This document shows positions 15,554-34,287 of a DNA stretch of 64,000 bases, piece after piece. Below the pieces are notes generated by a model. The model searched no databases. It was not told the DNA's origin and was given only the letters and a program-made list of their open reading frames with translations. The stretch's first letter is position 1. Each line of letters begins with the position of its first letter. The stretch lies in NCBI RefSeq assembly GCF_020731145.1, contig NZ_JAJFZN010000005.1, positions 1-64,000 of the forward strand, read 5' to 3'. The DNA is from Sneathiella sp. HT1-7. Its GTDB lineage: Bacteria > Pseudomonadota > Alphaproteobacteria > Sneathiellales > Sneathiellaceae. Position numbers and translations under genes: made by a program.

Positions 15554-17068
15554 ATGATCAATCTCAGCAGTTTCCTGAAATATCATGCGGAGCGGTGGCC
15601 AGATAACATCGCCATTGTCTATGAGGACCGCCGCATCAGCTATGCCGAACTATGGGAACGTGTCCGGCAACTCGCGCGCTATATGACAGAGCAGGGGATC
15701 GGGCGCGGGGATGTCGTGGCAGCATTCATGAAGAATAGCCCGGCTTTTTTGGAAATCTCCTTCGCAAGCAGCTATCTGGGGGCGGTCTTCCTGCCCATAA
15801 ACTACCGGCTCGCGACTGATGAGATTGCTTATATCGTCGGAAATGCCGAGGCCTCAATCCTTTTCGGGGATGAGGAGTTTGCGGATATTCTCAAACTTGA
15901 TGTGCCGGTCCGGCTTCTGGATGAAGAGATGCAGAAAGATATTTCCATCCTGACGGGGTGGGGGGAGGCTATTCCCCCGCAAGCCTATGTGAAGCCCGAT
16001 GATCTGTTCCGGCTCATGTATACTTCCGGGACGACGGATCGACCGAAAGGCGTGATGCATAGCTACCAGAATTTCTACTGGAAAAGCATGGAACATGTGG
16101 TCGTCCTCGGTCTCAGCCGGGAGACCCGTTTGCTCGTCACCGGTCCGCTATATCATGTTGGGGCTTATGATCTTCCAGGTGTGGCGGTTCTTTGGCTCGG
16201 TGGAATGTTGAAAATCCATCGGGAATATGATCCGCTTGAGGTCCTCGCCGGGATTGAAGCGGAAAAACTCAACGGGGCTTGGCTTGCGCCGGTCATGCTC
16301 TCCGGTATTCTGGGGCATCCCGAGCGAGAGAAGTATGAGGTGAGCAGTCTTGAGTGGTGCATCGGTGGCGGCGAGAAAACGCCGGAAGGCCGTATCCGGG
16401 AATTTCAGGATTATTTCAAAAACGGGCGTTATATCGATGCTTATGGCCTCACGGAATCCTGCAGCGGTGATACCTTTATGGAGCCGGGCTGGGAGATAAA
16501 GAAAATCGGCTCGACTGGACGGGCAACACCACATGTCTCCATCCGTATCACGGATGAGGAAGGGGCCTCCCTGAATGCCGGGGAGGAGGGGGAAATCTGC
16601 CTCCTCGGGCCGAAGGTGGCGGAAGGGTATTGGAAAGATCCGGAAAAGACAGCCGAGACGCGACATGGCGACTGGTTCCGGACAGGGGATGTCGGCTATC
16701 TTGATGACGACGGGTTCCTCTATCTGACTGATCGTATGAAGGACATAATCATTTCCGGCGGTGAAAACATTGCCTCCTCCGAGATTGAGCGGGTCATCTA
16801 TCAGATGCCGGGCGTTCTCGAAACGGCAGTCATCGGCATACCTGATTCCCGTTGGGGGGAAGTGCCAATCGCAGTGGTTGTGATGGAGAATGAGGAAAAA
16901 CTGAACGAGCAGGAATTGGAAGCACACTGCAGAGAACATCTTGCAGGTTTTAAGGTGCCAAAACATTTTATCTTGAGAGAGACCTTACCACGGAATCCTT
17001 CAGGCAAGATTTTGAAACGTGTTTTGCGGGACCAAATTTCAGTTTGCAGCCTTGTAAATGGAAAGTGA
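15554..17068 (+). CDS. AMP-forming acyl-CoA ligase
   Basis: A 504-residue ANL-superfamily enzyme. The P-loop YTSGTTDRPKG is at 156-166, the adenylate motif AYGLTES near 296, the hinge TGDVGYLDDDGF near 380, and the C-terminal catalytic Lys485 in NPSGKILKR. It activates a carboxylic acid to its CoA thioester with ATP. As the last gene of the E1/E2 operon and the only ligase in the island, it probably activates the acid imported by DctQMP. The last 12 residues after VLRDQ look unusual, and the gene ends about 40 nt before the IS left end. Confidence 0.9.
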   Translation: MINLSSFLKYHAERWPDNIAIVYEDRRISYAELWERVRQLARYMTEQGIGRGDVVAAFMKNSPAFLEISFASSYLGAVFLPINYRLATDEIAYIVGNAEASILFGDEEFADILKLDVPVRLLDEEMQKDISILTGWGEAIPPQAYVKPDDLFRLMYTSGTTDRPKGVMHSYQNFYWKSMEHVVVLGLSRETRLLVTGPLYHVGAYDLPGVAVLWLGGMLKIHREYDPLEVLAGIEAEKLNGAWLAPVMLSGILGHPEREKYEVSSLEWCIGGGEKTPEGRIREFQDYFKNGRYIDAYGLTESCSGDTFMEPGWEIKKIGSTGRATPHVSIRITDEEGASLNAGEEGEICLLGPKVAEGYWKDPEKTAETRHGDWFRTGDVGYLDDDGFLYLTDRMKDIIISGGENIASSEIERVIYQMPGVLETAVIGIPDSRWGEVPIAVVVMENEEKLNEQELEAHCREHLAGFKVPKHFILRETLPRNPSGKILKRVLRDQISVCSLVNGK

Positions 17069-17106
17069 GACATTGTTGCAAGAAAACAGTTTGATGGGTA
17101 TTCGCA

Positions 17107-17934
17107 CAGCATTGTCAGATAAAAATAGCTTGTCCCCAATATATGGATTCTTAATCTCTCTGTATGACAGGACATAATCCATTTCGCTATTTTAAGACCT
17201 CACCTGAGATCATCCGCTTGGCGGTGATGATGTATGTCAGTTTTCCTCTTTCACTTCGCAATGTCGAAGACCTTCTTCATGAGCGCGGCATCGATATCTG
17301 TCATGAAACAGTATGCTATTGGTGGGGCAGATTTGGCCCACTGTTCGTCGGCGAACTCCGTAAGAAGCGGACCCAACCGTTTCACAGTTACTCAAATTGG
17401 AAATGGCATCTCGATGAGGTCATTGTAAAGATAATTGGAGAGACACATTACCTTTGGCGTGCCGTTGACCATGAGGGGGACGTGCTGGAAGCCTATGTTT
17501 CTAAACGCCGCGATCGCAAAGCAGCAATGGTTTTTCTTAAGAAACTTATGAAACGGTATGGACGCCCGCGCAAAATAGTGACGGATAAATTACGTTCATA
17601 TCGTGCCGCAATGAAAACCATCGAAAATGCTGAGATACAAGAAGTCGGGCGGTGGAAGAACAATCGCTGTGAAAACTCCCATCTCCCGTTCCAACAAAGA
17701 GGGCAGGCGATGCTGCAATTCAGGCGCCGGTGTTGTTTGCAGAAATTTGCCTCAATCCACGCATCAGCCCATAACCACTTCAACCTTGAGCGCCACTTAG
17801 CCAACCGAGAAAAATTCAAGCTTCAGAGAAATGCCGCACGGGCCCAGTGGCAGCAACTTAGCGCGGTATAATGGAGGCACTTTTGTGCTATTCTACGTCA
17901 TACAGAGACGAGGTCGCATTAGTCTGACAGCACC
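17107..17934 (+). mobile_element. IS6-family insertion sequence, apparently intact
   Basis: About 828 bp. The right end carries TCTGACAGCACC (17923-17934). The left end has a degenerate complement (ACAGCATTGTCAGA near 17107-17120). A single transposase gene fills the interior, which is the usual IS6 size. It has the same orientation as the IS end at 1-242 and the remnants at 24089 and 35547. I see no clear 8-bp target duplication. The left boundary is approximate. Confidence 0.75.
17164..17871 (+). CDS. IS6-family DDE transposase
   Basis: 235 residues. The catalytic triad is visible: Asp84 (WHLDEV), Asp141 (IVTDKLRSY) and Glu170 (NNRCENSH). The N-terminal zinc-finger/HTH region matches the remnants elsewhere in the window. 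It catalyses replicative, cointegrate-forming transposition. It is full length, with no stop or frameshift, so it may be active and is the best source copy for the decayed relatives here. Confidence 0.92.
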   Translation: MTGHNPFRYFKTSPEIIRLAVMMYVSFPLSLRNVEDLLHERGIDICHETVCYWWGRFGPLFVGELRKKRTQPFHSYSNWKWHLDEVIVKIIGETHYLWRAVDHEGDVLEAYVSKRRDRKAAMVFLKKLMKRYGRPRKIVTDKLRSYRAAMKTIENAEIQEVGRWKNNRCENSHLPFQQRGQAMLQFRRRCCLQKFASIHASAHNHFNLERHLANREKFKLQRNAARAQWQQLSAV

Positions 17935-17996
17935 TCTTTTCCCCCTGCCCGGTCATGCTTTTTTTGAAGGCACAGTTCCGGCGTTTGCTCGGCAAC

Positions 17997-18911
17997 TCAA
18001 TTCAGTTTCTTGCTTGAAGACAACGCCCACAACCGTTCAATTTCGGTACGGCTTCTCTCTATCGAGCGGTGTAGTTTTACTGATAAACTTGTTTCCTGGT
18101 CGTAAGAGCTAATTCGTATCAACCTCCCGTCTTTAAGTTCGTTTTTAATGCCGATCGAAGGGAGCCATGCGACGCCAAGACCTTCAACACATGCAGCCTT
18201 TAAAGCTTCCGATACCGAGTTTTCATATCGAAACTCCGCATATTCAGTGAGGTTTGATTTTTCGAGAACATAGCTCGTAACACGACCTAACAGGCTTTCC
18301 GCAGTATAGGCCAGGTAAGGAAAATTCCCCCCACTGTTGATGGTATGTTTCGGGTTTCCAGCTGCATCTGGTGCACTAACAGCAATCAGTCGGTCTTCAG
18401 CCAGTTTAATCGAGGGATAACGGTCATCGTCGAACGTGGTGGGCACGATAGAATGCTGGTAACACAGCATGAAGTCGCTGGAATCCGAGAGAAGTGATTC
18501 GACACAACTGGAAAAATTCTCAGCATTAATCCGAACTTTCAGTGCCCCCAGGGAGCGCTCGATTTCGGATATCCAGACTGGATAATAGGATATTGCGAGA
18601 GTATGAAGCGCGACAATGTCGATGATTTCACCATGTCGTGATGCCAGATCCCGTGCTTCTTCCTTGGCTATCGAAAGTGATTTTATCACTTCATGAGCCG
18701 TTGGCTTGAACACTTCTCCGGCAGGGGTAAGCCGAACGGGATGTACGCTTCGATCAAACAATGGTGTCCCAATCCAGTACTCAAGGTTCTTAATTCGGCG
18801 TGTGAAGGCCGGCTGACTTACATTGCGCGCCTCCGCTGCACGGGAAAAAATCCTGAGGGATGACAATGCCAAAAAATCTTCAAGCCAGGCCAATTCCATG
18901 CTGTTCTCCAT
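17997..18911 (-). CDS. LysR-family regulator, divergent from amino acid ABC genes
   Basis: 304 residues. The LysR winged HTH is near 8-66 (FSRAAEARNVSQPAFTRRIK), with an effector-binding domain from about 95. It is transcribed away from the polar amino acid transporter genes at 19239 and is their likely regulator. The start is ATG at 18911; an in-frame ATG at 18899 would remove four residues. A T-N11-A palindrome lies 42-56 nt upstream. Confidence 0.9.
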   Translation of the reverse strand: MENSMELAWLEDFLALSSLRIFSRAAEARNVSQPAFTRRIKNLEYWIGTPLFDRSVHPVRLTPAGEVFKPTAHEVIKSLSIAKEEARDLASRHGEIIDIVALHTLAISYYPVWISEIERSLGALKVRINAENFSSCVESLLSDSSDFMLCYQHSIVPTTFDDDRYPSIKLAEDRLIAVSAPDAAGNPKHTINSGGNFPYLAYTAESLLGRVTSYVLEKSNLTEYAEFRYENSVSEALKAACVEGLGVAWLPSIGIKNELKDGRLIRISSYDQETSLSVKLHRSIERSRTEIERLWALSSSKKLN

Positions 18912-18952
18912 TTTTACGTTGTAACGGTAAACCAGATTTCAGGAATTACATG

Positions 18953-18967
18953 ATGCAAATGTTGCAT
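18953..18967. promoter_or_regulatory. candidate LysR-box (ATGCAA-N3-TTGCAT)
   Basis: This perfect palindrome contains TGCAAATGTTGCA, i.e. T-N11-A with dyad symmetry, the standard LysR recognition shape. It lies 42 nt upstream of the LysR start and 271 nt from the transporter genes. A half-site TTTGCAA occurs again near 18983. The rest of the 327-nt region 18912-19238 is AT-rich and holds no gene that I can support. Confidence 0.5.
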
Positions 18968-19238
18968 AGCCCTTGCGGTTTTTGCAATGGAAAGAGTTCG
19001 ACTATTATGCGTTTATATTATTGCTTTCGCATGAAGTGACGTGTTCAATAGCGATTATCATTCGCATTCGATTGTTTGGGAGAAGGATAAAAAATACGAC
19101 AAATTCCAATTGAAAATATTGAGTTCGTTTAATTGGTAGATAGTGGCGTGCGTTAAGAAAAATTTGTGGAGAATTAAACCGCATAGATTCTCAAAATTTG
19201 CGTAATTGTTGCGGATATAAACTAGGGAGACTGAATCA

Positions 19239-20048
19239 ATGAAGACAACTATCAAATGCATCATTGGCACTTTATGCTTGGGCGCAGCCGCCCTTTCAGG
19301 TCAGGTCGCGAATGCAGAGGCGCTGGATGACATCAAAGCGGCAGGCGTAATAAAAGTTGGCGTGAAAGCCGATTACAAGCCGTATGGCTTTTTGGATTCT
19401 TCCGGTGCGTCCATTGGAATCGAACCAGAACTCGCACAAGATGTTGCAGACAAACTCGGTGTGGAAATTGAATTTGTGCCAGTTGTCAGCTCAAACCGGA
19501 TGCAATTCCTCGAGCAGGGCAAGATCGACCTCATGATTGCCACGATGACGGATAAGCCAGATCGCCGGAAGGTCGTCGGCATTGTTGATCCAAATTATTA
19601 TTCATCAGGTACAAATATCCTGGCACCCAAAAAATATGGCTTTAAGAAATGGGAAGATTTGAACGGTAAGCCTGTTTGCGGTATCCAAGGCGCTTTTTAT
19701 AATAAGCGGACATCCGAAAATTACGGTGCGACAATCGTCGCCTTTAAAGGCACAGCGGAAGCCTATGCAGCATTGCAGGCAGGTAGCTGTGTCGCGTTTG
19801 TCTATGATGATTCTGCGATCGTTGCGAAAGCCAAGGAAGCTGGCTTCGAAGAATATGAGATGCCTTTGCCAACCATTGATGATGCCCCATGGGGCCTGGC
19901 GGTTCCGTTGGGCGAAGAAAAATTCAAGGACTTCATGAGCGAAATGACGATCGACTGGCACAAGTCAGGCCGCATTCTGGAGCTTGAGACAAAATGGGGC
20001 GTTGCCAACACGCCATTCGCCATAGCAATGCACGAAAAGTACAAATAG
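19239..20048 (+). CDS. polar amino acid ABC transporter substrate-binding protein
   Basis: 269 residues with a Sec signal peptide cleaved near residue 26 (VANA, then EALDD). It is SBP family 3 throughout, with IKVGVKADYKPYGF near 38-51 and the amino-acid-carboxylate region FLEQGKIDLMIATMT. It is followed after 83 nt by two permeases and an ATPase. The racemase fusion next to the module suggests acidic or D-amino acids as ligand (inference). Confidence 0.9.
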   Translation: MKTTIKCIIGTLCLGAAALSGQVANAEALDDIKAAGVIKVGVKADYKPYGFLDSSGASIGIEPELAQDVADKLGVEIEFVPVVSSNRMQFLEQGKIDLMIATMTDKPDRRKVVGIVDPNYYSSGTNILAPKKYGFKKWEDLNGKPVCGIQGAFYNKRTSENYGATIVAFKGTAEAYAALQAGSCVAFVYDDSAIVAKAKEAGFEEYEMPLPTIDDAPWGLAVPLGEEKFKDFMSEMTIDWHKSGRILELETKWGVANTPFAIAMHEKYK

Positions 20049-20131
20049 GCTGCACATTCCTCCCAAGGTGTTGCGTCGTAGGGCGCAACACCCACCATTT
20101 GTGAATTCGGTAATACCCAGGGGCAGGTAAT

Positions 20132-20878
20132 ATGCAGGAATATTTTGAATGGTTCCGGATCCTTTATGAAGAGACGGGGATAAACCTTCCCTTCTTATAT
20201 GATTCCTATGACCGTAACCGGATGTTCCAAGGCTTTCTGATGACGATTAAATTATCCGTCGTCTGTCTTTTCTTCTCGGTCATCATCGGCATTATCGGCG
20301 CCTGGCTGCAAGGCTCCTCACTTAAATGGACGCGCCGAATTGTCGATGCCTATATTCAGCTGTTTAGAAATACGCCGCCGTTGGTCCAGCTCTATTTCTT
20401 CTATTTTGCCATCGGTTCGTTAATGCCGAAAGTCGCGACGGAGTGGGGGGGCGAAGCGCCGCTTCTGGGTAATTTTGCATGGGCCGTGATTTCGCTTTCC
20501 TTTTTTGCCGGTGCCTTCAACGTGGAAATTTTTCGGTCCGGTATCGAAGCTGTTCCTAACTCCACGGTTGAGGCGGCGGAAGCCTTGGGGTTTTCCAAAT
20601 TTCAAATTTATAAAGACATTACTCTGCCGCTTGCCTTCCGGGTGTGTCTTCCCTCCCTCAACAACAATCTCGTAAACCTAGTGAAAACGACCACGCTTGC
20701 ATATGCGATTGCTGTGCCGGAAATGCTGTATGAGGCTAATCAAATCTGGTCGGACAATGTTAATGTTACCGAAATGATGCTGTTCTTGCTGTTTGCCTAT
20801 TTCATTCTCGTCGGGGCGTTGGTGTGGTGCACGAACCGGTGGGAACGGGCTTTAAGAATTCCGGGGTATGGATCATGA
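20132..20878 (+). CDS. amino acid ABC transporter permease (HisM/GlnP family)
   Basis: 248 residues with about five membrane helices and the family EAA loop GIEAVPNSTVEAAEALGFSK near 139-158, which docks the ATPase. It overlaps the next permease gene by 4 nt (ATGA). The permease heterodimer forms the membrane channel. Confidence 0.92.
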   Translation: MQEYFEWFRILYEETGINLPFLYDSYDRNRMFQGFLMTIKLSVVCLFFSVIIGIIGAWLQGSSLKWTRRIVDAYIQLFRNTPPLVQLYFFYFAIGSLMPKVATEWGGEAPLLGNFAWAVISLSFFAGAFNVEIFRSGIEAVPNSTVEAAEALGFSKFQIYKDITLPLAFRVCLPSLNNNLVNLVKTTTLAYAIAVPEMLYEANQIWSDNVNVTEMMLFLLFAYFILVGALVWCTNRWERALRIPGYGS

Positions 20879-21723
20879 GAACAACGACTCTGAAATCTGT
20901 CCTGCCTGTATTACTGCCTGCCAAGGCTAAATCAGGCAGTTTATTCAGTTTCCGATTGAAGCTGTGGCACGGGATTATCCTGCTTTGCATTTGCCTGCTG
21001 ACCTCGACAGCCGGATTTGCGCAATCGGATCCGATCAAAGCGTCCGTATTCGAAATTCTACTACGTTGGATGCCGTTGTTACTGACGGCATTTATTTTCA
21101 ACATCGCCATTTCCATGCTGGCAATGGGGATTGGTACAGCGGCGGGAACCGTTCTTGGTCTTGGCCAGATCTCTCCGAACGCTGGGTTGCGCAAGTTCTG
21201 CTGGTTTATCACTCAATTCTTCCGCAACTCACCTTGGTTGGTTCTATTGTTTTTTGCGATGTTCCTTCTGCCTTTCGAATTTAGCATTGGCGGAATAGAT
21301 ATTCCGCTCCCTGACTGGCTGAAGGCAACGATTGGTCTGTCATTGCCGGTTATGGCCAATATGTCGGAGATTGTCCGGGGGGCGGTCAATTCATTGCCAA
21401 GTGGACAATGGGAGGCTGCGGAAAGCCTTGCTTATTCGCGTCGGCAGACCCTGTGGCTGGTTATATTGCCCCAATGTGTAAAACGCATGCTGCCGCCCTG
21501 GATGAACCTTTATTCCATATTGACGATGGCTACTGTACTTGCCTCGGTGGTTGGTGTTTCAGAGGTGATGACGACCACGGGTCGGGCTTTGGCGTCCGAA
21601 GGCGGCCGCCCGGATCTGCTTGCTCCTTTTTACTCATTCGTGCTCCTGATTTTCTTCATCTACTGCTATCCGATCGCGCGGTGGACAGTTTATTTGGAAA
21701 AGAAATTTGCGGTGAAAGGTTAG
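20875..21723 (+). CDS. amino acid ABC transporter permease, second subunit
   Basis: About 282 residues from the ATG overlapping the upstream TGA. The EAA loop, about residues 175-200, reads GAVNSLPSGQWEAAESLAY. It carries an N-terminal extension of about 50 residues with an extra hydrophobic stretch (FAQSD after a signal-like helix) that the first permease lacks. It pairs with the upstream permease. Confidence 0.9.
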   Translation: MRTTTLKSVLPVLLPAKAKSGSLFSFRLKLWHGIILLCICLLTSTAGFAQSDPIKASVFEILLRWMPLLLTAFIFNIAISMLAMGIGTAAGTVLGLGQISPNAGLRKFCWFITQFFRNSPWLVLLFFAMFLLPFEFSIGGIDIPLPDWLKATIGLSLPVMANMSEIVRGAVNSLPSGQWEAAESLAYSRRQTLWLVILPQCVKRMLPPWMNLYSILTMATVLASVVGVSEVMTTTGRALASEGGRPDLLAPFYSFVLLIFFIYCYPIARWTVYLEKKFAVKG

Positions 21724-21729
21724 AATTTG

Positions 21730-22476
21730 ATGACTTGGACAATAAACGAACCCATGGTTTCCATCCGTGATGTCTATAAGTCCTTTGGAGCCTTTGAAGT
21801 ACTCAAAGGCATTTCGCTCGATGTCATGAAAGGTGAAGTTATCTGCATCATAGGGCCTTCCGGTTCCGGAAAATCCACACTTATACGCTGCATCAATGCC
21901 CTCAATGATATTCAGAAGGGCTCCATACTGGTTGAGGGACAGGAAGTAAATGACCCCAAGCTGGATAAACTGGAGCTTCGAAAGAAAGTTGGCATGGTTT
22001 TCCAGCAGTATAATCTTTTCCCTCATAAAACGGCCTTACAAAATATCATGATGGCGCCTGTCAGGGTGCTGAAACAGGATAAGGCAGAAGTTGAAAAAAT
22101 TGCACGGGAACTGATTAGAAAGGTACGCCTCGAGGGGAAAGAAGACGCCTATCCGGGAGAACTATCCGGTGGGCAGCAACAGCGCGTTGCGATTGCCCGT
22201 TCGTTGGCCATGAATCCGGATGTTATCCTGTTCGATGAAGTGACAGCGGCTCTCGACCCGGAAACTGTTGGCGAGGTTCTGCAAACGATCAAGCTTTTAG
22301 CGGAAGAAGGGATGACGTGTATTCTTGTAACGCATGAAATGGCCTTTGCGCGTGAAGTTGCGGACCACATCTATTTTACGGATCGTGGTGTCATTGTTGA
22401 GCACGGTCCACCGGAGACTTTTTTCTCCGAGGCCAAGGATCCGAGAACGAAAGAGTTTCTAAGTCAGATTTTATAA
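21730..22476 (+). CDS. amino acid ABC transporter ATPase
   Basis: 248 residues. Walker A is GPSGSGKST, the signature is [15 protein letters not shown], and Walker B is [14 protein letters not shown] (DEVT where DEPT is common, a frequent variant in this subfamily). The ATG at 21730 is preferred over the in-frame TTG before it. It energises import together with the two permeases. Confidence 0.93.
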
Positions 22477-22589
22477 TCCCTGAAATTCCTGATTCAAATT
22501 GGAAAAGCCAAATTGCGGAGGCTTTTGGTAACATCGTCGCTTAAGACAGCCCGCGATAAGTTGCTCTTCTTACGGAGATGAAGTTTAAG

Positions 22590-24041
22590 ATGACATCTGG
22601 CAGGCACTTAAAGCTGGGCATTGTTGGAGGACTAGGTGCGCGCGCGGGTGCTGACATTCTCAATCAAATAGTTCGGCTGACGCCTATCAGATCTGAAGGG
22701 GATCATCGAGAGATCTCCTTCGAACAAAAGCCGCTGATGGAAAGTATCTCCGCCGCAGACAAAGATTATGTCCCGACCCACCGCAAGTTCTATGTGTATG
22801 ATACCCTGGCCCGCATGGAAAAAAACATGTGCGATGCTGCGCTTTTGCCATGTTTCATCACTCACACCTTTATCGAAGAATTGCGCGTGGAACTCGGAAT
22901 TAAGCTAATTTCCATGATGGAAGCCATTGGCGAGTATATTCACGATCATTATTCCGGGGTTCATCGAATAGGTGTTCTGACAACACCTTATGTACGAGAT
23001 AAAAGACTCTTTGATAATTTGTTGGGGCCGCAAATTGAGGTGATCTATCCTGATAAGGAAGCCCAATCGGAAATGCTGCAAGCCATCTATGGCACGGCGG
23101 GTTTTAAGGCCGGTCACAGCGGAAATGAAGTAAATGACCGCATTGCAAATGTTATTGCCAATCTTGTAAAAAATGATGCTGAAATCATCGTCCCGGGTAT
23201 GACGGAAATACCCTTGATGAATATTAATATGAGTCGCCACAGGAACATTCCGCTCATCAACACCAACGAAGTCTATGCGCAATTCGCGTTGAGCCAAACT
23301 TCTGAAGTATATGGCAAACCGTTCAAGATCGGAATTGTCGGAGGTGTTGGACCCGCCGCGACAATAGATTTCATGTCCAAGCTCATTGCTGCGACTGAAG
23401 CGGAGCGCGATCAGGATCACATCAAACTTATGGTCGAGCAAAACCCGCAGATTCCAGATCGGACGTCAAATCTATTATCAGACGGGACGGATCCCACTCT
23501 CGCGCTGTATTCCACCTGCAAAAAACTGGAAAGTGGTGGCGCAGATATAATCGCAATTCCCTGCAATACTGCGCATGCGTATGTCGATCGCATTCAGCGT
23601 CATTTGAATATACCAATTGTCAATATTCTGACGGAAACCGTCGACCATATTCGCAAGAGTCGTCCGAAAATACGAAAGGTTGGGATTTTGGCGACATCAG
23701 GAACGATCGCTAGCTGTCTCTATCAGGAAGCTCTTCGCGCCGAAAATCTGGTGCCGGTCGTTCTTCAGTCCGATGTCCAGGCGAAGGTTATGGATGCGAT
23801 TTACGGTGAGATGGGCGTCAAGGCGGGCCATAGAGAAGGTCTATGTCGGCAGCATATGATCGAAGCCATTTCGGCACTTGCGGATAATGGTGCCGAAGCT
23901 GTCATCATGGGTTGCACGGAACTACCACTCATCGCGCCCGAACAATGCGATACTCAATCTCTAATACTTTTTGATCCAACCCAAATTCTCGCTCGAAAAT
24001 GCGTCGATTTTTCTGGAAAGCAAAAACTCCCGGCTTTGTAA
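22590..24041 (+). CDS. tandem Asp/Glu-racemase-like fusion, N-domain lacking one cysteine
   Basis: 483 residues made of two racemase-superfamily domains (about 5-235 and 245-475), each opening with a KxGIVGGxG motif. The C-terminal domain keeps both catalytic cysteines: Cys325 (PCNTAH) and Cys442 (GCTELP). The N-terminal domain has Cys88 (PCFITH) but Met204 in PGMTEIP where the second Cys should be, so it cannot do two-base racemisation. Family members are single-domain proteins of about 230 residues that dimerise; this fusion may be a built-in pseudo-dimer. GGAG at 22574 favours ATG 22590; ATG 22578 is possible. It could also be a decarboxylase or isomerase of this superfamily. It follows the amino acid transporter genes. 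Confidence 0.8.
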   Translation: MTSGRHLKLGIVGGLGARAGADILNQIVRLTPIRSEGDHREISFEQKPLMESISAADKDYVPTHRKFYVYDTLARMEKNMCDAALLPCFITHTFIEELRVELGIKLISMMEAIGEYIHDHYSGVHRIGVLTTPYVRDKRLFDNLLGPQIEVIYPDKEAQSEMLQAIYGTAGFKAGHSGNEVNDRIANVIANLVKNDAEIIVPGMTEIPLMNINMSRHRNIPLINTNEVYAQFALSQTSEVYGKPFKIGIVGGVGPAATIDFMSKLIAATEAERDQDHIKLMVEQNPQIPDRTSNLLSDGTDPTLALYSTCKKLESGGADIIAIPCNTAHAYVDRIQRHLNIPIVNILTETVDHIRKSRPKIRKVGILATSGTIASCLYQEALRAENLVPVVLQSDVQAKVMDAIYGEMGVKAGHREGLCRQHMIEAISALADNGAEAVIMGCTELPLIAPEQCDTQSLILFDPTQILARKCVDFSGKQKLPAL

Positions 24042-24088
24042 AAAGAAAATGGCTTGTTGTCCTATTATTCATTTTCTACTCTTCCTGA

Positions 24089-24632
24089 ATGAAAAGAACA
24101 TAACCCATTTCGCTATTTCAAAACGTCACCTGAGATCATCCGCCTGAGTGTGATGATGTATATCAGATTTCCGTTGTCCCTTCGCAACGTTGAAGATTTA
24201 CTTCATGAACGGGGTATCGACATTTACAACAAGACTGTGCGCTATTGATGGAATAAATTTGGCACACTGTTCGCGCGCGAAATTCGTGAGAAACGGGTCA
24301 GTCGACCTCAAAATTATTCGAACTGGAAATGGCATCTTGACGAAGTCTTCGTAAAGATCAATGGCGAGACATATTACATTCGGCGAACCATCGACCATGA
24401 GGACGAAGTGCTGGAAGTCTATGTTTCCAAGCGCCGAGATCGCAAGGCAGCGATCATATTTCTTAAGAAGCTTATGAAACGGTAAGGACGTCCGCATCAA
24501 ATAGTGACGGATAGATTACGTTCATATTGTGCCGCGCTGGCGGAGTGGCAGCAGCTTAGTGCAGCACAATAGCGGGGCCTTTGTGCCATTTTACGTCATA
24601 CGGAGACGAGGCCGCATTCGTCTGACAGCACC
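24089..24632 (+). mobile_element. decayed IS6-family copy with transposase pseudogene
   Basis: The region is collinear with the intact transposase (PFRYFKTSPEIIRL onward) but broken. There is one extra base at the start, TGA replacing a Trp codon near 24246, a TAA near 24484, and an internal deletion near 24533 that joins the middle of the gene to its last codons. The right terminus TCTGACAGCACC ends at 24632; no left terminus is recognisable. It separates the amino acid ABC module from the acylase module. Nothing else is seen in 24042-24731. Confidence 0.85.
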
Positions 24633-24731
24633 AAATATACTATTACGGGAAATTAAATTGGCCCGTTTAATCAACGGGCCAATTCAACTTACAGAAAGAA
24701 TAATATATTGAGAACGATAAATATTGATTGA

Positions 24732-27530
24732 TTACAGCTTAGATTTAATCTTATGTCCCTTGCGGAGCGTTTGTTGTGGTTTCGGTTTTTCGCCAATCGG
24801 CAGTGAAAAATCAATCATTGGCCGGAAGTCATTGTCACGGTATAGCGGCACTTGGTTGTCGGTAAACTTTGTTTTGTCTCCACGATACTCGCGAACTCCG
24901 CCGGGAATGGCATTATAGGCTGTCACTTTTTCTCTACTATCAAACGCGACAATATGGTTTTGAGCCCCGCGATTGCGGAAATAAGGTATGCTGAGCGTTG
25001 GCTTCCGACGGCTAGTTGTTGCTTTTTCCGCCATTCTAGTTGAAATGCCATAATAGCTCCGGTACGCCGCCGGAATATTTCCATTACTGTCCTTTACTTC
25101 GGAATACATTTTGTCGAATTGACTATTGGCCATTTTCAAAGCAGTAGCCATCATCATAAGCGCCTTCTTCTGCGACGTTTTCTTATTAATATTATCAGAA
25201 TTAGTGCCACCGATGATGTCGTAAGCATTTGGGTCGGCATACTGCACATTTCTAAAAATGAAATGCAGGTTGTTGAGCATAATGCGGCCAATCGGATGAA
25301 TGTTGGAACTTGTATCAAAAGTTAGCTTGCGTTTTGTACCATTAGAAAACTTCGGCTGTTTCAACTTGGAAAAGTTTGCGGTCCAGGCTCTTGCCAGACC
25401 TTCACGCGCCTCTTTTTCGCCCGCAAGAACAGGAATTTGGAACAAATTCGCAAATTCCTGCAACCAGAGCTGGAAAAGAACCTGACCGCCATTCACCCAC
25501 CTATCTTCATCATAGCGCGTCAAATTATTCGCATCATCACGATATCCATTCCATGTGAGAATTTTTTTAAGTGCTTTGCGTTGATCGCCGTTTAACGAAT
25601 TGACATCCAGTTTTTCCAGAAATTGTTTGAACTGACCGTAATAAACGTCCTTTAACGACAAAACTCCATTCGTCAAAGCCGTCGACAATACCGATGGCCG
25701 CGTGTTTTTCAGGGCGTCAACGATATACAGCGAACGATCCCACTGGAACCAGGCGGAATGGATATAGTCCGGATCCTGCATCATCAGGTAAGGTTTATGA
25801 TTCCAACTCGTGATCGCGCCGTCATCTGTGGCATAATTAAGTTTATAATACTGAGGAGATTCTTTGCGCCAACCCTTGGTAGGAGACATTGGAATTGGCA
25901 TGCGAAGATCAAATTTGGTCAAGAAGTTCATTGGATCGAAGGGATTCTTCGATTTGTCAACATTCGTACCGATGCGAGGCGGAATAACACCTGTCAAACG
26001 GAAGAGAATAATGCCGGATTTATGGGCCGCCACGACATTCAAGTTACCCCCGAAGGAATCATGCGCCTTTTGAAGTTCTTTTATTGTTTTCGCCTGACTT
26101 GCCTCAATGCCGGCGGCGAATGAGCGGATCGTCTGTCCTTCCCAACTCAGGCGCTTAACAAAGGCAACCGCTTTACTACCATTTTCGTTTTTATCCAACA
26201 AGACGACCGGCCAGTTGGTACCCCTAATATAATATCCTGTTACGCCAATTTCCCTAAGATCAGGGTTTTGCGCCAGTTCTAGACCTTCGGCGGATTTGTA
26301 ATTCCCATTTGGGCTCATCGCAACATCTATACAGAAAAGATCGGAACTCCCGTTATTGGCGGCAGTCACCCCAAATGCAAGATTTCCATTTTGGCCGGTG
26401 AGAGGTGAAAAAGTACCGGGGAAAGTAGTGCCAGCATACCTGAAACCTTCTTCGCTGCTCAGATTAATCGGATAGAATAAGCTCGGATCAAGTGCGCCGG
26501 TCTGAGGACCGTTGATCAACAGGCTTTTCAAATTAGGGTCGACGCTTTTTCCGGCAACAGCCCAGAAGTTACTTGCCGTTGTCGGATACATTTCCGCGGC
26601 AGCAAGCTTTTGATCCGGGCGACCATTAACTTTTTTCACAAAGTCGGTTGCGGACGAATAAATGTGGCATTGCGCACTCTTATCTGACTCAAGAAACGCC
26701 CCTTCCATCATGTCGCGATATTGCGCCATCATTTTGCGCATCTTCGCGCCCTCTTCGTCGTTGGGCACCGGAATCTCCGTGGCTGCATTTGGATCAGCTA
26801 CCCATTTACTCGTATTGAAAAGACGGCGGGCTCTTTCAAGATCGTTTGGGTTTGCGCTTTCCAGAGCTTTATAGAAGGCGAGACCGTTCAGCTGATCGTT
26901 TCTTGCTGAAAACATATCCATAATTCTATTATGGAAAACGTGGAATATGTCGAATCTGGTCCACTTCCCAGGGAACTCCCAATGATCTAGTGCGAGTTTA
27001 ATTTGTTTGATTTCACCTTCATCCAAGGCATCTCCAAAAGAAAGTTGCGAGCGAATTTTTTTCTGCAACGGACCTGAATAGCAGGAGTTCTTTACCGCTT
27101 CTTTGCCATCTACAGAAGGCTTCGAATTAAGATCGGTCAAAAACTGGTTAATACCGGCGGCCATACAATCTGCAACGGCAAGGGGAAGCGTCGTTATATT
27201 GTCCTCCAAATTACCAAAGTTCTCTATTTCTTTATTTAGCTGGCTATGGATGTTTGGATACCGGCTTCTGATAATAACGTTGTAGGGGAAAACATTTTCA
27301 TCTTTTTTTGAGTTTCCGTTAGCGAGGCGCAAAAGGGCGGCCATTTGACCTATTCTGTCTCGCGCCATGGAATAACCCAGCCCGTAGAACAATTCCTTAT
27401 TAGTGGTAGCCCGGATGGCAGGGACACCAAATTCATCTCTATTTATCGAGAGCTCCGCAAACGCAGCACCTGGCAAAATAAATGTTGTAAAAAGGAAAGT
27501 GCATAGGGATCTTTTTGATATTCTACGCAT
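24732..27530 (-). CDS. penicillin-acylase-family Ntn hydrolase (S45), periplasmic
   Basis: 932 residues with a signal peptide (cleavage near AAFA, residue 25). The Ntn nucleophile is Ser320 in TTASNFWAV, the start of the beta chain after autoproteolysis. GPQTG (341-345) and GVTAANNGSSD follow as in penicillin and AHL acylases. Members hydrolyse amide bonds of N-acyl compounds (beta-lactams, acyl-homoserine lactones, acyl amino acids). It is longer than usual (about 750-850). It looks more AT-rich than its surroundings, consistent with transfer. It lies between an IS remnant and a LysR gene that reads the same way. The import and amidohydrolase genes opposite suggest a nutrient role, but quorum quenching or antibiotic hydrolysis cannot be excluded. 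Confidence 0.85.
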   Translation of the reverse strand: MRRISKRSLCTFLFTTFILPGAAFAELSINRDEFGVPAIRATTNKELFYGLGYSMARDRIGQMAALLRLANGNSKKDENVFPYNVIIRSRYPNIHSQLNKEIENFGNLEDNITTLPLAVADCMAAGINQFLTDLNSKPSVDGKEAVKNSCYSGPLQKKIRSQLSFGDALDEGEIKQIKLALDHWEFPGKWTRFDIFHVFHNRIMDMFSARNDQLNGLAFYKALESANPNDLERARRLFNTSKWVADPNAATEIPVPNDEEGAKMRKMMAQYRDMMEGAFLESDKSAQCHIYSSATDFVKKVNGRPDQKLAAAEMYPTTASNFWAVAGKSVDPNLKSLLINGPQTGALDPSLFYPINLSSEEGFRYAGTTFPGTFSPLTGQNGNLAFGVTAANNGSSDLFCIDVAMSPNGNYKSAEGLELAQNPDLREIGVTGYYIRGTNWPVVLLDKNENGSKAVAFVKRLSWEGQTIRSFAAGIEASQAKTIKELQKAHDSFGGNLNVVAAHKSGIILFRLTGVIPPRIGTNVDKSKNPFDPMNFLTKFDLRMPIPMSPTKGWRKESPQYYKLNYATDDGAITSWNHKPYLMMQDPDYIHSAWFQWDRSLYIVDALKNTRPSVLSTALTNGVLSLKDVYYGQFKQFLEKLDVNSLNGDQRKALKKILTWNGYRDDANNLTRYDEDRWVNGGQVLFQLWLQEFANLFQIPVLAGEKEAREGLARAWTANFSKLKQPKFSNGTKRKLTFDTSSNIHPIGRIMLNNLHFIFRNVQYADPNAYDIIGGTNSDNINKKTSQKKALMMMATALKMANSQFDKMYSEVKDSNGNIPAAYRSYYGISTRMAEKATTSRRKPTLSIPYFRNRGAQNHIVAFDSREKVTAYNAIPGGVREYRGDKTKFTDNQVPLYRDNDFRPMIDFSLPIGEKPKPQQTLRKGHKIKSKL

Positions 27531-27680: not shown

Positions 27681-28589
27681 TTATTGCGTATTCGATAACA
27701 GTAACATCGAGTCGCGTAACGAACGAATGTAAAGGTCATCGACAGCCCGATTTGCTGCACCTGCATTTCGAATAGCTTGTACTCTAACGCTAATATCGAC
27801 GGATAATGGTATTGCCTTTATGTCAATATGCGCGCTTGCAGCAGCTGTCAGGCTGTCTGAAATCCCGCAACAGCCAAGTGCTTCGGCCAACCGCGGTACA
27901 ATTGCTGGGGAAACTGCGGTCATCAATCTTTTCGCTGAAATACCATGCTTTGTTAGTTCCCGGTCAATAAACCTGCCGACAGGCGCGCGGGTGAAAGGCA
28001 TAACACAAGGGTATTCTTCCATAGCCGATATGGGGAAGACATCCTCCTGCGCCATGGGATGATTTTTCGGGACAATCATCACAATTTTCGTATGCCCTAT
28101 GGTAGAAATCTTCAATTCTGGGGTTTCAGGTATTTCAGCGGCGAGGCCGACATCTATATTTCCCTCTCGAAGGGATTGTATTTGATTGGCGCTTGAGCCG
28201 ACGTCCACCGATACATCAATTTCTGGGTATTCTTCCTTAACTCTTTTCAGGGCAACGGCGAGGAACGGGAACGAAAAGAAACTTGGAGCAGACATCAGGC
28301 GTAATGTTTGGCCTCGCCCCTCGCGAATTCCGGCAATGTCATTTTCAACCTGTCGTATTCTTTCGTATGCTCCTTCGCAAATTTGGAATAGGCGATGCGC
28401 TTCCCAGGTCGGTTTTATTCTCCCGCTTTTATTAATGAAAAGGCTGAGTTTTAAAGCGGCCTCAAAATCCCTGATGTGCCGGCTGACGGTGGGTTGCGCC
28501 AGATTTAGGCGGCGTGCAGCCTCACTTATACTGTTAGTCTCGTAAATAGTTTTGAAAATTTCGAGACGCTGGAGAGTTAGTATTCGCAT
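27681..28589 (-). CDS. LysR-family regulator, divergent from second TRAP operon
   Basis: 302 residues. The HTH is near 6-64 (ISEAARRLNLAQPTVSRHIR), with an effector domain from about 92. It is divergent from the TRAP/amidohydrolase operon (28710) and upstream of, and collinear with, the acylase gene. It may control both. The 119-nt divergent region contains a palindrome at 28646-28662. Confidence 0.9.
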   Translation of the reverse strand: MRILTLQRLEIFKTIYETNSISEAARRLNLAQPTVSRHIRDFEAALKLSLFINKSGRIKPTWEAHRLFQICEGAYERIRQVENDIAGIREGRGQTLRLMSAPSFFSFPFLAVALKRVKEEYPEIDVSVDVGSSANQIQSLREGNIDVGLAAEIPETPELKISTIGHTKIVMIVPKNHPMAQEDVFPISAMEEYPCVMPFTRAPVGRFIDRELTKHGISAKRLMTAVSPAIVPRLAEALGCCGISDSLTAAASAHIDIKAIPLSVDISVRVQAIRNAGAANRAVDDLYIRSLRDSMLLLSNTQ

Positions 28590-28645: not shown

Positions 28646-28662
28646 CAATATATTTTCTATTG
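28646..28662. promoter_or_regulatory. candidate operator (CAATA-N7-TATTG)
   Basis: A perfect 5+5 inverted repeat lies midway between the divergent LysR and TRAP genes, flanked by repeated CTAT/ATAG words. A LysR binding site is plausible. In such AT-rich DNA chance occurrence is also possible. Confidence 0.3.
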
Positions 28663-28709
28663 TGTTATTGAGCGGTGATTGCCATTCTCCTTTAAACAGG
28701 GAAAATAAA

Positions 28710-29999
28710 ATGACATTGATCTGGACACCCTTTCTATTTCTAGTGGTCGCATTGATTTCCGGGACAGCCATTGCCTACCTCGTTGGTGGGTCCGCGGTAA
28801 TCGGCTTCATTGTGTCTGATAACTCACAATTTTTGGCGGCTTTGCCGCAGCGGGTTTTTAGCCAGCTTGATGTCTTTGCGTTTCTTGCGATGCCATTGTT
28901 CATATTCGTTGGTGAATTGATGAACAGAGGCGGAATAGCCGATGCGCTGATCCGTTTTTCCTTGACCATCCTCGGTCGCTTCAAGGGAGGGCTCGGTCAC
29001 GTCAATATTCTCACGAGCGTTTTTTTTGCAGGAGTATCAGGATCGGCAACGGCAGACGCTGCCGCACTCGGCAATACTCTGGTTCCGATTATGGAGAAAG
29101 AGGGCTATCCAAAGGAGTACGCAATCGCGATAACGGCGGCATCATCCATTATCGGGCCCATCATTCCACCCAGCATCATTTTAATTTTTTATGGTGCGCT
29201 GATGAACACTTCTGTCGTCGCATTGTTTGCTGCGGGTATTGTTCCCGGTTTGCTACTGGCCGTTATGCTTATGATTCTTAATAGTTTTTTTGCTGTTAAG
29301 TATGACCATCCTGGTGGCAGGGGGTCGGATATCCCCAAATTTTTCCCTGCGCTCTCGCATGCCCTTCCGGCCCTCAGTCTTCCGGTCATCATCTTGAGTG
29401 GAATTCTATTTGGTTTCATGACTCCGGCTGAGGCGGCCGCGTTGGCTGTTGTTGTTGCTGCCTTGGTCGGATTTATGTATCGGGAGCTTAATGTCACGAA
29501 AGTGATTGCCGCTGCCCATCGGACGATAATATTGACGGGTGCGATTTTCGTAATTCTCGTCGCCATTGCTACATTTGGGTATCTATCTTCTCTGGAGCAG
29601 ATACCGCAATTGCTTGCTTCGTCGATAACGTCGATGGGGCTAGGGGCAACAGGATATATGTTAGTCCTCAACCTTATTTTGATTATTGCCGGAATGGTGA
29701 TGGATGTTAAGGCTGCCGTCGCACTGCTTGCGCCTCTTCTTGTCCCACCGGCTCTCTTGATGGGGGTTGATCCGACGCATATGGGCATCGTCGTGGGCTT
29801 TAATCTGACAGTGGGCCTGTTGACACCTCCTCTGGGGGGTGTGCTGCTAATCTTGTCGACGGTAACCAATTTCAATTACTGGAGTATTGTTCGCGCCATT
29901 ATCCCATTCCTGGTGGCTGAACTGTTCTTCTTGGGCTTCCTGATCTTCGTTCCGGAGATCAGCTTAGCGCTGCCAAGAGCTCTCGGATACTTGGGCTAA
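28710..29999 (+). CDS. TRAP transporter large permease (DctM family)
   Basis: 429 residues, hydrophobic throughout, with SSIIGPIIPPSIILIFYG (about 148-165) as the family signature. The ATG at 28710 has AGGGAA upstream. This operon has the unusual order dctM-dctP-dctQ, unlike dctQ-dctM-dctP in the first module, so the two TRAP systems are not recent duplicates. Confidence 0.92.
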   Translation: MTLIWTPFLFLVVALISGTAIAYLVGGSAVIGFIVSDNSQFLAALPQRVFSQLDVFAFLAMPLFIFVGELMNRGGIADALIRFSLTILGRFKGGLGHVNILTSVFFAGVSGSATADAAALGNTLVPIMEKEGYPKEYAIAITAASSIIGPIIPPSIILIFYGALMNTSVVALFAAGIVPGLLLAVMLMILNSFFAVKYDHPGGRGSDIPKFFPALSHALPALSLPVIILSGILFGFMTPAEAAALAVVVAALVGFMYRELNVTKVIAAAHRTIILTGAIFVILVAIATFGYLSSLEQIPQLLASSITSMGLGATGYMLVLNLILIIAGMVMDVKAAVALLAPLLVPPALLMGVDPTHMGIVVGFNLTVGLLTPPLGGVLLILSTVTNFNYWSIVRAIIPFLVAELFFLGFLIFVPEISLALPRALGYLG

Positions 30000-30073
30000 C
30001 TTCTACACCAAATCTCGACAGTGCACCTGTCATAGTAAACGATATTTTTAACTTTCAATGGAGATTGATATTC

Positions 30074-31054
30074 ATGAAACGTTTATTAGGTATTTCGATG
30101 GCTTTACTTTTGACCTTCTCGTCTGCAGCGATTGCGCAGGAAGTCAAAATTGCTCTCGCGGGAACGGAAGATATCCAGAAGAATGGGGAATATGTTTTTA
30201 TTAAAGCTTTCGCCGATCATCTGAATGCTAACGGTATGAAGACAAAAGTTTTTCCATCAGATACCCTCGGGAAGGAAAAAGAGCGGTTCGACCAGGTTTC
30301 CCAAGGCCTGATTCAAGTCGACATGGCTAATTCAGCCGTCCTGTTCAAGCTCGCCCCTATTAGCAAGGGTATTTTTCTGCCTTTCCTGTTTTCTGGCAAT
30401 GACCATTTCGATACAGCGATGAAAAGAGGGAAAATTATTGAAAAAATTAACAAGCAGATCGAACCGCACGGTGTGCGCCTCGCCGGATTTCCTATGCGAG
30501 GTGGTAGCGCGGGTCTCTTTAACACTAAGGTGCCGGTAAGCAAACTAGATGACGTTAAAGCGCTTCGAATTCGAGGTAAGGACGGCGAGCAAATTAAGTT
30601 GTTTGAGGCGTGGGGTACAAAAGGGACGGTCGTCAGCTGGGCGGAGGTCGCCAACGCTCTTCAAACAGGTGTTGCTGACGGCTACTTTAACCCTCCCGCA
30701 TCGGCACTTCTTTATGGGCATACAGCAATTTTGAAGCATTTTACCCCTCTCGACAGTGGTGTTTCAGCTCGCGTTGCGCTGCTTTCCGAGGATTGGTACA
30801 GCGGCCTGGATGACAAAGATAAATCTGTCGTTGATGAAGCCGTCGCAAAGGGCATTGCCGCGAACCGTAAGTGGACTGAAGAGTGGAGTAAAAACGCTTT
30901 GAATATGCTTAAGGGTGAAGGCGTAACTATAACCGAATTGGAGCCTGGCGAGAGGGATCTCTTTGTCCAGGCAAGTCAGGCGATTTGGGAAGATATAGTT
31001 TCGAAAGATGATCTCGAAATTCTCATAGATGCTTCACAGTACCAAGGGAACTAA
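30074..31054 (+). CDS. TRAP transporter substrate-binding protein (DctP family)
   Basis: 326 residues. The signal peptide ends near AAIA (about residue 21), and the mature protein is of standard DctP length. KALRIRGKDGEQIKLFEAWG near 160-180 contains the substrate-binding Arg of the family. The ATG at 30074 has GGAGA nine bases upstream; a TTG three codons earlier is rejected. The ligand is probably the organic or acyl-amino acid processed by the downstream amidohydrolase (inference). Confidence 0.9.
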   Translation: MKRLLGISMALLLTFSSAAIAQEVKIALAGTEDIQKNGEYVFIKAFADHLNANGMKTKVFPSDTLGKEKERFDQVSQGLIQVDMANSAVLFKLAPISKGIFLPFLFSGNDHFDTAMKRGKIIEKINKQIEPHGVRLAGFPMRGGSAGLFNTKVPVSKLDDVKALRIRGKDGEQIKLFEAWGTKGTVVSWAEVANALQTGVADGYFNPPASALLYGHTAILKHFTPLDSGVSARVALLSEDWYSGLDDKDKSVVDEAVAKGIAANRKWTEEWSKNALNMLKGEGVTITELEPGERDLFVQASQAIWEDIVSKDDLEILIDASQYQGN

Positions 31055-31077
31055 TAATTTCTGGAAAGGCGAGTACC

Positions 31078-31614
31078 ATGACGTCCATAACGAAGGCCAT
31101 TACCAAGATAAGTAACGGTTGCGACCGAGTGGTTACAATTGCCGCCATAGCATTCCTCGGGGCGATGGTGTTTGCTATCGCCCTGCAGGTTGTGGCGAGG
31201 TATGTCTTTGACTCGCCTCCACCCTGGACAGAAGAAGTTGCCCGTTATGCAATGGTATGGGTCGGCTTGTTAGGGGCAACCGTGTCGTTTAAGGCCGGTT
31301 TCGACCCGGTTCTTGCCCGCGTACCCGATAATCTGCCAATCTTCTTGAAACGATGTGCCGGCCTGGTCCGGTGGGCTGCCGTGCTCATATTCTTACTGCC
31401 CATACTTTGGTACTCGTTTTTTGGTCCAGGCACTAACTTTGTCCGCGGATTTCTGGCAAGGCACTGGTATCTGGAGGCAGAGACTTTCGAAATATCGACC
31501 TTCTACGTTGCGATCGGAGTTCCGATATTCATTGTAGTGATACTTCTACATGGGCTTAGCCTTTCGCTCCTTCCAATAACGAAAAGAAATGAAGAAGAAA
31601 ATGACTCTGTATAG
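31078..31614 (+). CDS. TRAP transporter small permease (DctQ family)
   Basis: 178 residues with four membrane segments and the DctQ segment VARYVFDSPPPWTEEVARY near 39-57. It lies 23 nt after dctP, and its 3' end overlaps the amidohydrolase start by 26 nt, so translation is coupled. Confidence 0.9.
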   Translation: MTSITKAITKISNGCDRVVTIAAIAFLGAMVFAIALQVVARYVFDSPPPWTEEVARYAMVWVGLLGATVSFKAGFDPVLARVPDNLPIFLKRCAGLVRWAAVLIFLLPILWYSFFGPGTNFVRGFLARHWYLEAETFEISTFYVAIGVPIFIVVILLHGLSLSLLPITKRNEEENDSV

Positions 31615-32797
31615 TGATTTGGGTTTGGAAGCTGACCCTGAATTTTTTGAAGAGCTGGTAACGTTGCGCCGGGATATTCACAAATATCCGGAAACAGCAT
31701 TTCAGGAAACACGAACAGCAGCAATCGTTGCCGCCGAGCTCGAAAAAGCAGGTATTTCGGTAAACTGCGGTCTGGCGGCAACAGGTGTCGTTGGTACTCT
31801 AAAAGGAAAGACCGCGAGCTCCCGAACTATCGGCCTGAGAGCAGACATGGACGCACTCTTCATCCATGAAAAAAACGAATTTGAATATAAATCGGTAAAT
31901 GCTGGAAAAATGCATGCTTGTGGCCATGACGGACATACGGCAATGCTTCTGGGAGCGGCTAAGTATCTTGCGAAACATCGTAATTTTTCTGGAACCGTTC
32001 ATTTTATATTCCAGCCCGCCGAAGAAAGTGAAGGCGGTGCCCGCGTAATGATCGAGCAAGGCTTGTTTGATAAATTTCCTTGTGACGTTGTTTATGGGAT
32101 GCATAACATGCCGGGGCTTGGCGTTGGAAAATTTGTCATCAAATCTGGGCCGATGATGGCGGCCGGGGATACATGGCAGGTTGAGTTTGTCGGCACGGGT
32201 GGTCATGGAGCCGCTCCGCATCTGGCAACAGATCCGACGATGGCATCCGCCATGTTTATGAGCAATATTTCCACTGTTGTTGCCCGTAACGTCCCTGCTG
32301 TTGATTCTGCAGTGATTAGTATTGGACATATCGCAGCGGGTGAATTCAACTCGCCAAATATTATTCCATCCACTGTCCTGGTTCGGGGGACGGCGCGAAG
32401 CTATACGCCTGAAACGCGTGACAATATAGAGGCAAGACTGTCAGTTCTGGCGCAATCTTCAGCAAGCGCTTATGAGTGTCAGGCGAATTACAAATTCATC
32501 CGCCGTTATCCACCCTTGATTAATTGGCCGGACCAAACTGCTACTGCTATCGACGCGGCGACACTTACGACCGGGCATAAAAATGTCGACGGGAAAGGAC
32601 AAGCTCTAGGTGGCTCTGAAGACTTCGCCTTCATGCTGGAAAAAGTGCCTGGAGCCTATATTCTGGTTGGGAACGGTGACAAGGAATCCAACAAATTTGT
32701 TCATAACTCTCTTTATGATTTCAACGATGAGGCATTGCCATACGGCGTGGCTTACTGGGTAAATCTTGTTGGTGTCGAGCTTGGTGGCGTTTCATGA
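31589..32797 (+). CDS. M20-family amidohydrolase (HipO/AbgB-like)
   Basis: 402 residues. Metal ligands of the dinuclear M20D site are visible: Cys111 and His113 (HACGHDGH), Glu145-Glu146 (QPAEESEGG) and His172 (GMHNMPG). A lid dimerisation domain follows at about 195-310. The family hydrolyses N-acyl or N-carbamoyl amino acids and related amides in the cytoplasm. It overlaps dctQ and, by 4 nt, the MmgE/PrpD gene, so import and cleavage are tightly linked. The start could be the ATG four codons later. Confidence 0.9.
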   Translation: MKKKMTLYSDLGLEADPEFFEELVTLRRDIHKYPETAFQETRTAAIVAAELEKAGISVNCGLAATGVVGTLKGKTASSRTIGLRADMDALFIHEKNEFEYKSVNAGKMHACGHDGHTAMLLGAAKYLAKHRNFSGTVHFIFQPAEESEGGARVMIEQGLFDKFPCDVVYGMHNMPGLGVGKFVIKSGPMMAAGDTWQVEFVGTGGHGAAPHLATDPTMASAMFMSNISTVVARNVPAVDSAVISIGHIAAGEFNSPNIIPSTVLVRGTARSYTPETRDNIEARLSVLAQSSASAYECQANYKFIRRYPPLINWPDQTATAIDAATLTTGHKNVDGKGQALGGSEDFAFMLEKVPGAYILVGNGDKESNKFVHNSLYDFNDEALPYGVAYWVNLVGVELGGVS

Positions 32798-34134: not shown

Positions 34135-34287
34135 TGTCTGATTTGACGCCGTTGATGGCATATGAGGTATCTAGAGTTTTGGGCTGAAAAGGAGATATTT
34201 GGGCTGGGTTGCCACCTTTCTGATTCAGCTTTTTGATATCTCCCTGGAGGACGATGGCTGGCTCATCAGACTTATCCTCCTACTTAA

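Follow-up and report, generated by a model that had tools for sequence, protein, structure and literature searches.

A tandem racemase fusion with one two-cysteine half and one single-cysteine half, a candidate aspartate-type racemase from Sneathiella sp. HT1-7

Gene Organization of the Locus

We analyzed 64,000 nucleotides of Sneathiella sp. HT1-7 (contig NZ_JAJFZN010000005.1, positions 1 to 64,000; hereafter the window), in which a fused tandem racemase gene that matches PF01177 twice lies on the plus strand at 22590–24041. The longest frame runs from 22578 to 24041 on the same strand, has 487 codons, and is open throughout. The second ATG (22590) appears a likelier start than the first (22578), because a GGAG at 22574–22577 touches the first ATG and sits 12 nt before the second, and because the start of the Leisingera protein aligns with residue 5. 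Also on the plus strand are genes for a family-3 solute-binding protein (19239–20048), two permeases (20132–20878 and 20824–21723), and an ATPase (21727–22476) of an amino-acid ABC transporter. The initial annotation had placed the racemase at the end of an amino acid ABC locus, and the fused gene is indeed downstream of this operon on the same strand.

A LysR regulator gene is encoded on the minus strand (17997–18911). The regulator and the racemase probably travelled together, since this LysR shares 60% identity with the LysR adjoining the fused racemase gene of Leisingera and 53% with its Phaeobacter counterpart. The cassette is flanked on the left by an IS6-family transposase gene (17164–17871, plus strand) and on the right by a degraded IS6 copy (24033–24632, plus strand), which has the same orientation as the left copy and is 77–82% identical to it (77% over 507 columns). 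This arrangement fits acquisition of the cassette by transfer; the pair is not a fresh composite transposon, because the copies are just 77% identical. An Rfam search of positions 17000–25000 of the window returned nothing at gathering scores.

Positions 1–128 of the window hold the 3′ end of another IS6, which shares 81% identity with the 17-kb copy. On the minus strand, 24732–27530 encodes a 932-aa penicillin-amidase-family protein (PF01804) that scores far under the cut-off of the PvdQ model and may be an acylase acting on N-acyl amino acids or lactones. A second cluster (28662–35518) encodes the TRAP transporter components DctM, DctP, and DctQ together with an MmgE/PrpD protein, an M20 peptidase, and another PF01177 protein, 315 aa long, in which both cysteines are present. 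It is preceded by a LysR gene (27681–28589, minus strand) and followed by an IS6 fragment (35630–35805).

Two PF01177 Domains with Different Cysteine Patterns

PF01177 was the sole Pfam family found on the fused protein, with two matches amounting to 239.2 bits. The N-half (22590–23303, plus strand) was matched at 22623–23285 with 84.1 bits (E 1.9e-23), and the C-half (23316–24038, plus strand) at 23337–23999 with 159 bits (E 2.4e-46), against a cut-off of 31; neither match contains a stop. The two halves align with each other at 25% identity over 232 columns (E 1e-27). These matches within a single frame bear out the initial annotation, which had described two racemase-superfamily domains in one chain. 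The cysteine pattern given there was also exact. The C-half holds C329 (IPCNTAHA) and C446 (MGCTELPL), together with R295, Y409, and K415. The N-half holds C92 (LPCFITH) only, with Met208 (VPGMTEIP) at the position of the second cysteine; H96 and K177 are kept, and the PDR motif of the C-half is absent. Against TIGR00035 (aspartate racemase, cut-off 93.1), the C-half scored 177 and the N-half alone 90.9, just under the cut-off.

Distribution of the Fusion

Homologues were collected from plasmids and genomes. A tblastn search of the plasmid collection matched 264 records. In 34 of them a site covered 80% or more of the query, though many of these 34 are short single-domain sites matched by both halves. 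Full-length plasmid fusions were found in Leisingera (59.8%), Phaeobacter (54.7%), and Burkholderia, Caballeronia, and Paraburkholderia (41.5–47.4%); the three annotated records (Leisingera, Phaeobacter, and Burkholderia) carry the name “amino acid racemase”. Genome contigs supplied three more fusions, the named contigs including Pandoraea and Caballeronia.

A family profile was built from ten fusions and applied at a threshold of E 1e-60, with few candidates scored per genome. It matched 4 of 398 genomes in the phylum sample (one of the four C-half-only or single-domain), 3 of 385 in the class sample (one of the three so), 3 of 194 in the order of genome G262 (two of the three so), and 65 of 299 in the family of genome G450, where 5 of the 65 retain a C-half remnant only. 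These samples overlap, with G000, G116, G262, G384, and G450 recurring. When 150 genomes were searched with PF01177, the single two-match frame among the matches listed was G450:C21, a member of the fused family. No fused homologue turned up in 23 congeneric genomes, the completeness of which is as low as 56% in some cases.

The 82 frames that matched over most of the query were reduced to 63 distinct ones, and L047, which is the window re-fetched, was dropped. The resulting alignment has 63 rows, the window and 62 homologues, and covers part of the G450-family genomes (30 loci kept, 40 regions fetched). L041, L049, L082, L083, L084, L099, and L102 were left out, their matches not extending over most of the length. 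All 62 distinct homologues have the same fused architecture, and none has the second N-half cysteine. On these comparisons the fusion is real and not an artefact or a product of chance, because 62 distinct homologues have it. The contrary case, that the halves are separate genes in close relatives and the fusion a sequencing artefact, did not hold in the loci read, where frames of the fused family that hold the C-half alone occur in Cupriavidus and look like remnants of a deletion. Nor is the architecture special to this locus, as had been thought possible, since many proteobacteria share it: it recurs in the G450 family, on the Pandoraea and Caballeronia contigs, and on the Leisingera, Phaeobacter, and Burkholderia plasmids.

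Among the matches listed from the open-licence literature, no paper on the fused, one-cysteine-short architecture was found. In PMC12661438 the tree is limited to sequences of 200–400 aa, and the fusion would therefore fall outside it. The fused two-domain architecture looks like a little-described variant. Its family (PF01177), its C-half, and the components of the gene cluster all belong to known kinds.

Conservation and Descent of the Two Halves

The C-half residues C329, C446, R295, Y409, and K415 are each present in 63 of 63 rows. In the N-half, the first cysteine is kept in 61 of 63 rows (Ser in L123 and L098), and the second in none (Leu 45, Met 13, Ala 3, Phe 1, Val 1). H96 (62/63), E101 (63/63), and K70 (61/63) are also kept, and position 177 is Lys in 50 rows, Arg in 11, and Glu or a gap in 2. 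The two cysteines of TIGR00035 members are therefore found in every C-half and in no N-half. The single-domain organization of that subfamily is absent from the window frame and from the 62 homologues, each of which has two domains. The fused protein is thus a variant of the aspartate racemase subfamily, because two domains lie in one frame, and the window protein appears to be a cofactor-independent racemase belonging to that group.

Mean pairwise identity is 0.57 for the N-half vs 0.70 for the C-half. The median dN/dS values are 0.24 and 0.18, respectively (626 pairs, dS 0.1–1.2), and single pairs reach 0.90 and 0.45; the pairs have branches in common and are non-independent, and these figures are descriptive. 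The alignment indicates that the N-half is under purifying selection and is kept as a protein, although it evolves faster than the C-half. This degree of conservation would imply a non-catalytic job. The N-half may nevertheless be dispensable, because it is shrunken in one genome (L099) and deleted in Cupriavidus, and because its dN/dS reaches the above maximum in single pairs.

A tree of 80 domains drew on 22 of the 63 fusions. Their N-halves group in a single clade (support 100/100), and the C-halves form one clade (98/91) with a single intruder, the Cupriavidus-type L049, which groups with a full fusion (100/93). A topology uniting the N- and C-halves as one clade was not rejected (p-AU 0.219), and the N-half may have arisen by internal duplication. 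The tree fits a single origin of the fusion, and the domains were apparently joined once, long ago.

The 245-aa C-half frames of Cupriavidus were considered as a stand-alone ancestor and rejected, as L049 falls inside the C-half clade; L102, from the same genome, aligns at the same relative positions. At L041, the one locus translated in three frames, a deletion likewise explains the frame better than an origin from separate genes: the start of an aspartase, recognized by eye, passes over into the C-half of the racemase, which is read in a different frame. Here, at 8300–9640 of L041 (Cupriavidus campinensis), a deletion seems to have fused the 5′ end of the aspartase gene with the sequence for the C-half, and the symporter and the N-half are missing. 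The G450-family genomes with C-half-only frames are inferred to be Cupriavidus from a near-identical frame in C. campinensis. A second subfamily (subfamily B) comprises L085–L091, L096, and L103, and 6 of these 9 have the glycine loop GVVTGAAQ in the N-half.

Structural Comparison

The predicted full-length model, built with four aligned sequences, had a pLDDT of 76.2 and a pTM of 0.49, and the packing of the halves is unreadable from it because this pTM is too low; the N-half predicted alone had a pLDDT of 50. The C-half aligned in sequence with the Pyrococcus horikoshii aspartate racemase 1jfl at E 2e-46, and the model C-half superimposed on it with a TMt of 0.90. The Z scores of the model against 1jfl, 2dx7, and 3s81 were 28.3–29.1 in rows that cover the C-half only. 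The hydantoin/allantoin racemase group gave 16.0–17.8, below the 28–29 of the aspartate racemases. The hydantoin specificity considered in the initial annotation found no support. In the alignment, R295 falls in the PDR motif and K415 in the KAG motif of the P. horikoshii aspartate racemase; the corresponding residues there, Arg48 and Lys164, hold the side-chain carboxylate of the substrate.

Gene Neighborhoods of Related Fusions

Neighbors within 3.5 kb of the racemase were surveyed by similarity to reference proteins (E 1e-20); some of the regions stop close to the racemase gene, and some loci may be represented twice, once from each of two collections. In the 36 regions of the main subfamily, a dicarboxylate/amino acid:cation symporter was found in 32, a LysR-type match in 33 (at least one of them just a short frame), and an aspartate ammonia-lyase (AspA) in 21, the other 15 having none within 3.5 kb. 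The symporter, LysR, and AspA were all absent within 3.5 kb in the nine regions of subfamily B, and the Pfam-assigned neighbors of L103 are AidB-like acyl-CoA dehydrogenase, CoA-transferase, and UvrA-like genes, which give no clue to its function. The lyase of Burkholderia pyrrocinia passes the AspA equivalog cut-off (718 vs 681.2), that of Leisingera is under it (606.9 vs 681.2), and both pass the wider NF008909 model. An E. coli plasmid carries a single-domain racemase gene, a C4-dicarboxylate transporter gene, and aspA beside a LysR gene. The aspartate genes beside the relatives and the E. coli plasmid cluster therefore support D-aspartate use, in which D-aspartate would be racemized and the product deaminated to fumarate. 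Only the neighbors and the motifs favor aspartate as the substrate.

In the window, the ABC system replaces the symporter, and neither a symporter nor a lyase gene adjoins the racemase. The binding protein shares 75% identity with a Parasedimentitalea plasmid protein whose gene lies beside MmgE/PrpD and sarcosine oxidase genes. A racemase was annotated beside the ABC relatives in none of the six loci read, and the transporter seems to have been recruited separately from the racemase. Related amino-acid ABC transporters at L125, L127, L129, and L130 adjoin MmgE/PrpD, sarcosine oxidase, N-methyltryptophan oxidase, or asparaginase genes; this recurring ABC family perhaps serves N-substituted amino acid uptake.

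A clear aspartase was not found in the window genome among the three PF00206 proteins examined. Two are 25–26% identical to the aspartases of the clusters. The third is 43–45% identical; it passes the FumC equivalog (749.9 vs 664.75), fails the AspA equivalog (502.6 vs 681.2), and also passes NF008909, named aspartate ammonia-lyase (548.4 vs a cut-off of 510).

Proposed Function and Alternative Explanations

We consider it moderately probable that the protein is an aspartate-type racemase for acidic D-amino-acid use in which a non-catalytic N-half serves as a built-in partner or effector site. In the relatives, a symporter would take up D-aspartate or a close acidic amino acid, a role that the ABC transporter would fill in the window. 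Judging from the conserved neighbors, the racemase would convert this compound to the L form, and aspartase would then deaminate it; in the window genome the L form would be passed to other L-aspartate routes, because a clear aspartase was not found there. Only the C-half would racemize, one cysteine removing a proton and the other returning one. This two-cysteine proton transfer is described for OpaE and allantoin racemase in PMC12661438. The C-half should racemize an acidic amino acid because of its homology to two-cysteine racemases, and the N-half would be incapable of the usual transfer because the second acid/base cysteine is lost.

Aspartate racemase is a dimer, and the family is known as homo-oligomers of single-domain chains. 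The N-half would be a pseudoenzyme standing in for the second subunit of the dimer, and it may bind an acidic ligand at the Cys/His/Lys pocket, stabilizing or tuning the C-half. A stronger form is put forward only tentatively: the N-half would be a ligand sensor whose one-cysteine pocket binds an acidic amino acid and which switches the C-half within an obligate pseudo-heterodimer.

It is unlikely that the enzyme instead epimerizes another or an N-substituted acidic amino acid delivered by the ABC transporter, the lyase of the relatives being a C–N lyase of wider range. The ABC relatives adjoin genes for MmgE/PrpD and sarcosine oxidase, MmgE/PrpD and asparaginase, N-methyl-L-tryptophan oxidase, or sarcosine oxidase, and the lack of a clear aspartase among the PF00206 proteins of the window genome is in keeping with an N-substituted substrate. 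However, the transporter's apparently separate recruitment (a racemase annotated beside none of the six relatives read) speaks against this explanation, and one of the six relatives has a sulfatase instead. The known iminodisuccinate epimerase, moreover, has the MmgE/PrpD fold and not PF01177, according to PMC7347537.

A role as CuyB, the cysteate racemase that supplies CuyA with D-cysteate, is quite improbable. NF052483 (cysteate racemase, cut-off 190) scored the whole protein at 352.9 and the C-half at 252.9, and on the Phaeobacter plasmid a D-cysteine desulfhydrase gene and an amino-acid ABC system lie about 4.6 kb from the fused gene, with another desulfhydrase gene 8.6 kb off on its other side. 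However, a 219-residue stretch of the P. horikoshii aspartate racemase (248.9) and the E. coli racemase beside aspA (249.5) also clear the cut-off of this model, and the N-half is under it (104.5). A Priestia racemase near a dicarboxylate symporter scored 254.6, and a Deinococcus racemase beside a desulfhydrase 270.8. The label does not decide the substrate, because an aspartate racemase also passes; this NCBI model takes in an aspartate racemase too and may over-name proteins. In addition, no TIGR01275 match over the cut-off was found in the window genome (assuming that CuyA would score there), and the recurring neighbors of the fused racemase are aspartate genes.

Catalysis by the N-half itself, as a one-base reaction through its single conserved cysteine, is very unlikely. 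Arylmalonate decarboxylase, a structural relative, works with a single cysteine, and the N-half keeps its first cysteine (61/63 rows), H96, and Lys or Arg at 177. Against this, the second cysteine is lost in 63/63 rows, the PDR motif is absent, and two members have Ser at the first cysteine. Equally remote is a decaying N-half without a role, which its faster evolution (0.57 vs 0.70), its shrinkage in L099, and its loss in the Cupriavidus remnant would suit, but which sits poorly with its median dN/dS of 0.24 and with K70, C92, E101, and H96 kept in 61–63 of 63 rows. An iminodisuccinate epimerase was rejected, the window protein matching PF01177 only and the known enzyme belonging to the MmgE/PrpD family (PMC7347537).

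As an aspartate-type racemase with a non-catalytic N-half, the protein would be a natural enzyme–pseudoenzyme fusion in a cofactor-free racemase family whose two-cysteine mechanism is well studied. With an active and an inactive site in one chain, mutants can part the roles of the two halves directly. The fusion also marks a probable D-aspartate utilization cluster, which several plasmids carry and which in the window is flanked by insertion sequences.

Comparison with Known Systems

The closest known enzymes are the aspartate racemases (TIGR00035; 1jfl, 2dx7, and 3s81; PF01177), with which the C-half shares the fold, the two cysteines, and the NPQIPDRT and GVKAG motifs at 35–39% identity in the structural alignments. 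These enzymes are single-domain proteins of approximately 228–240 residues, whereas the fused protein adds a preceding one-cysteine domain. The CuyB model NF052483, which the C-half and an aspartate racemase both pass, is likewise single-domain (225 positions). OpaE and the allantoin/hydantoin racemases belong to the same superfamily and have two conserved cysteines (PMC12661438), but they differ from the fused protein in their single domain and in their Z scores (16.0–17.8 vs 28–29). The E. coli plasmid cluster (AP026488.1) contains a LysR-type regulator, a dicarboxylate transporter, and an aspartase, as in the fused family; it differs in that its racemase has one domain and its transporter is annotated as an anaerobic C4-dicarboxylate transporter rather than the symporter of the fused family.
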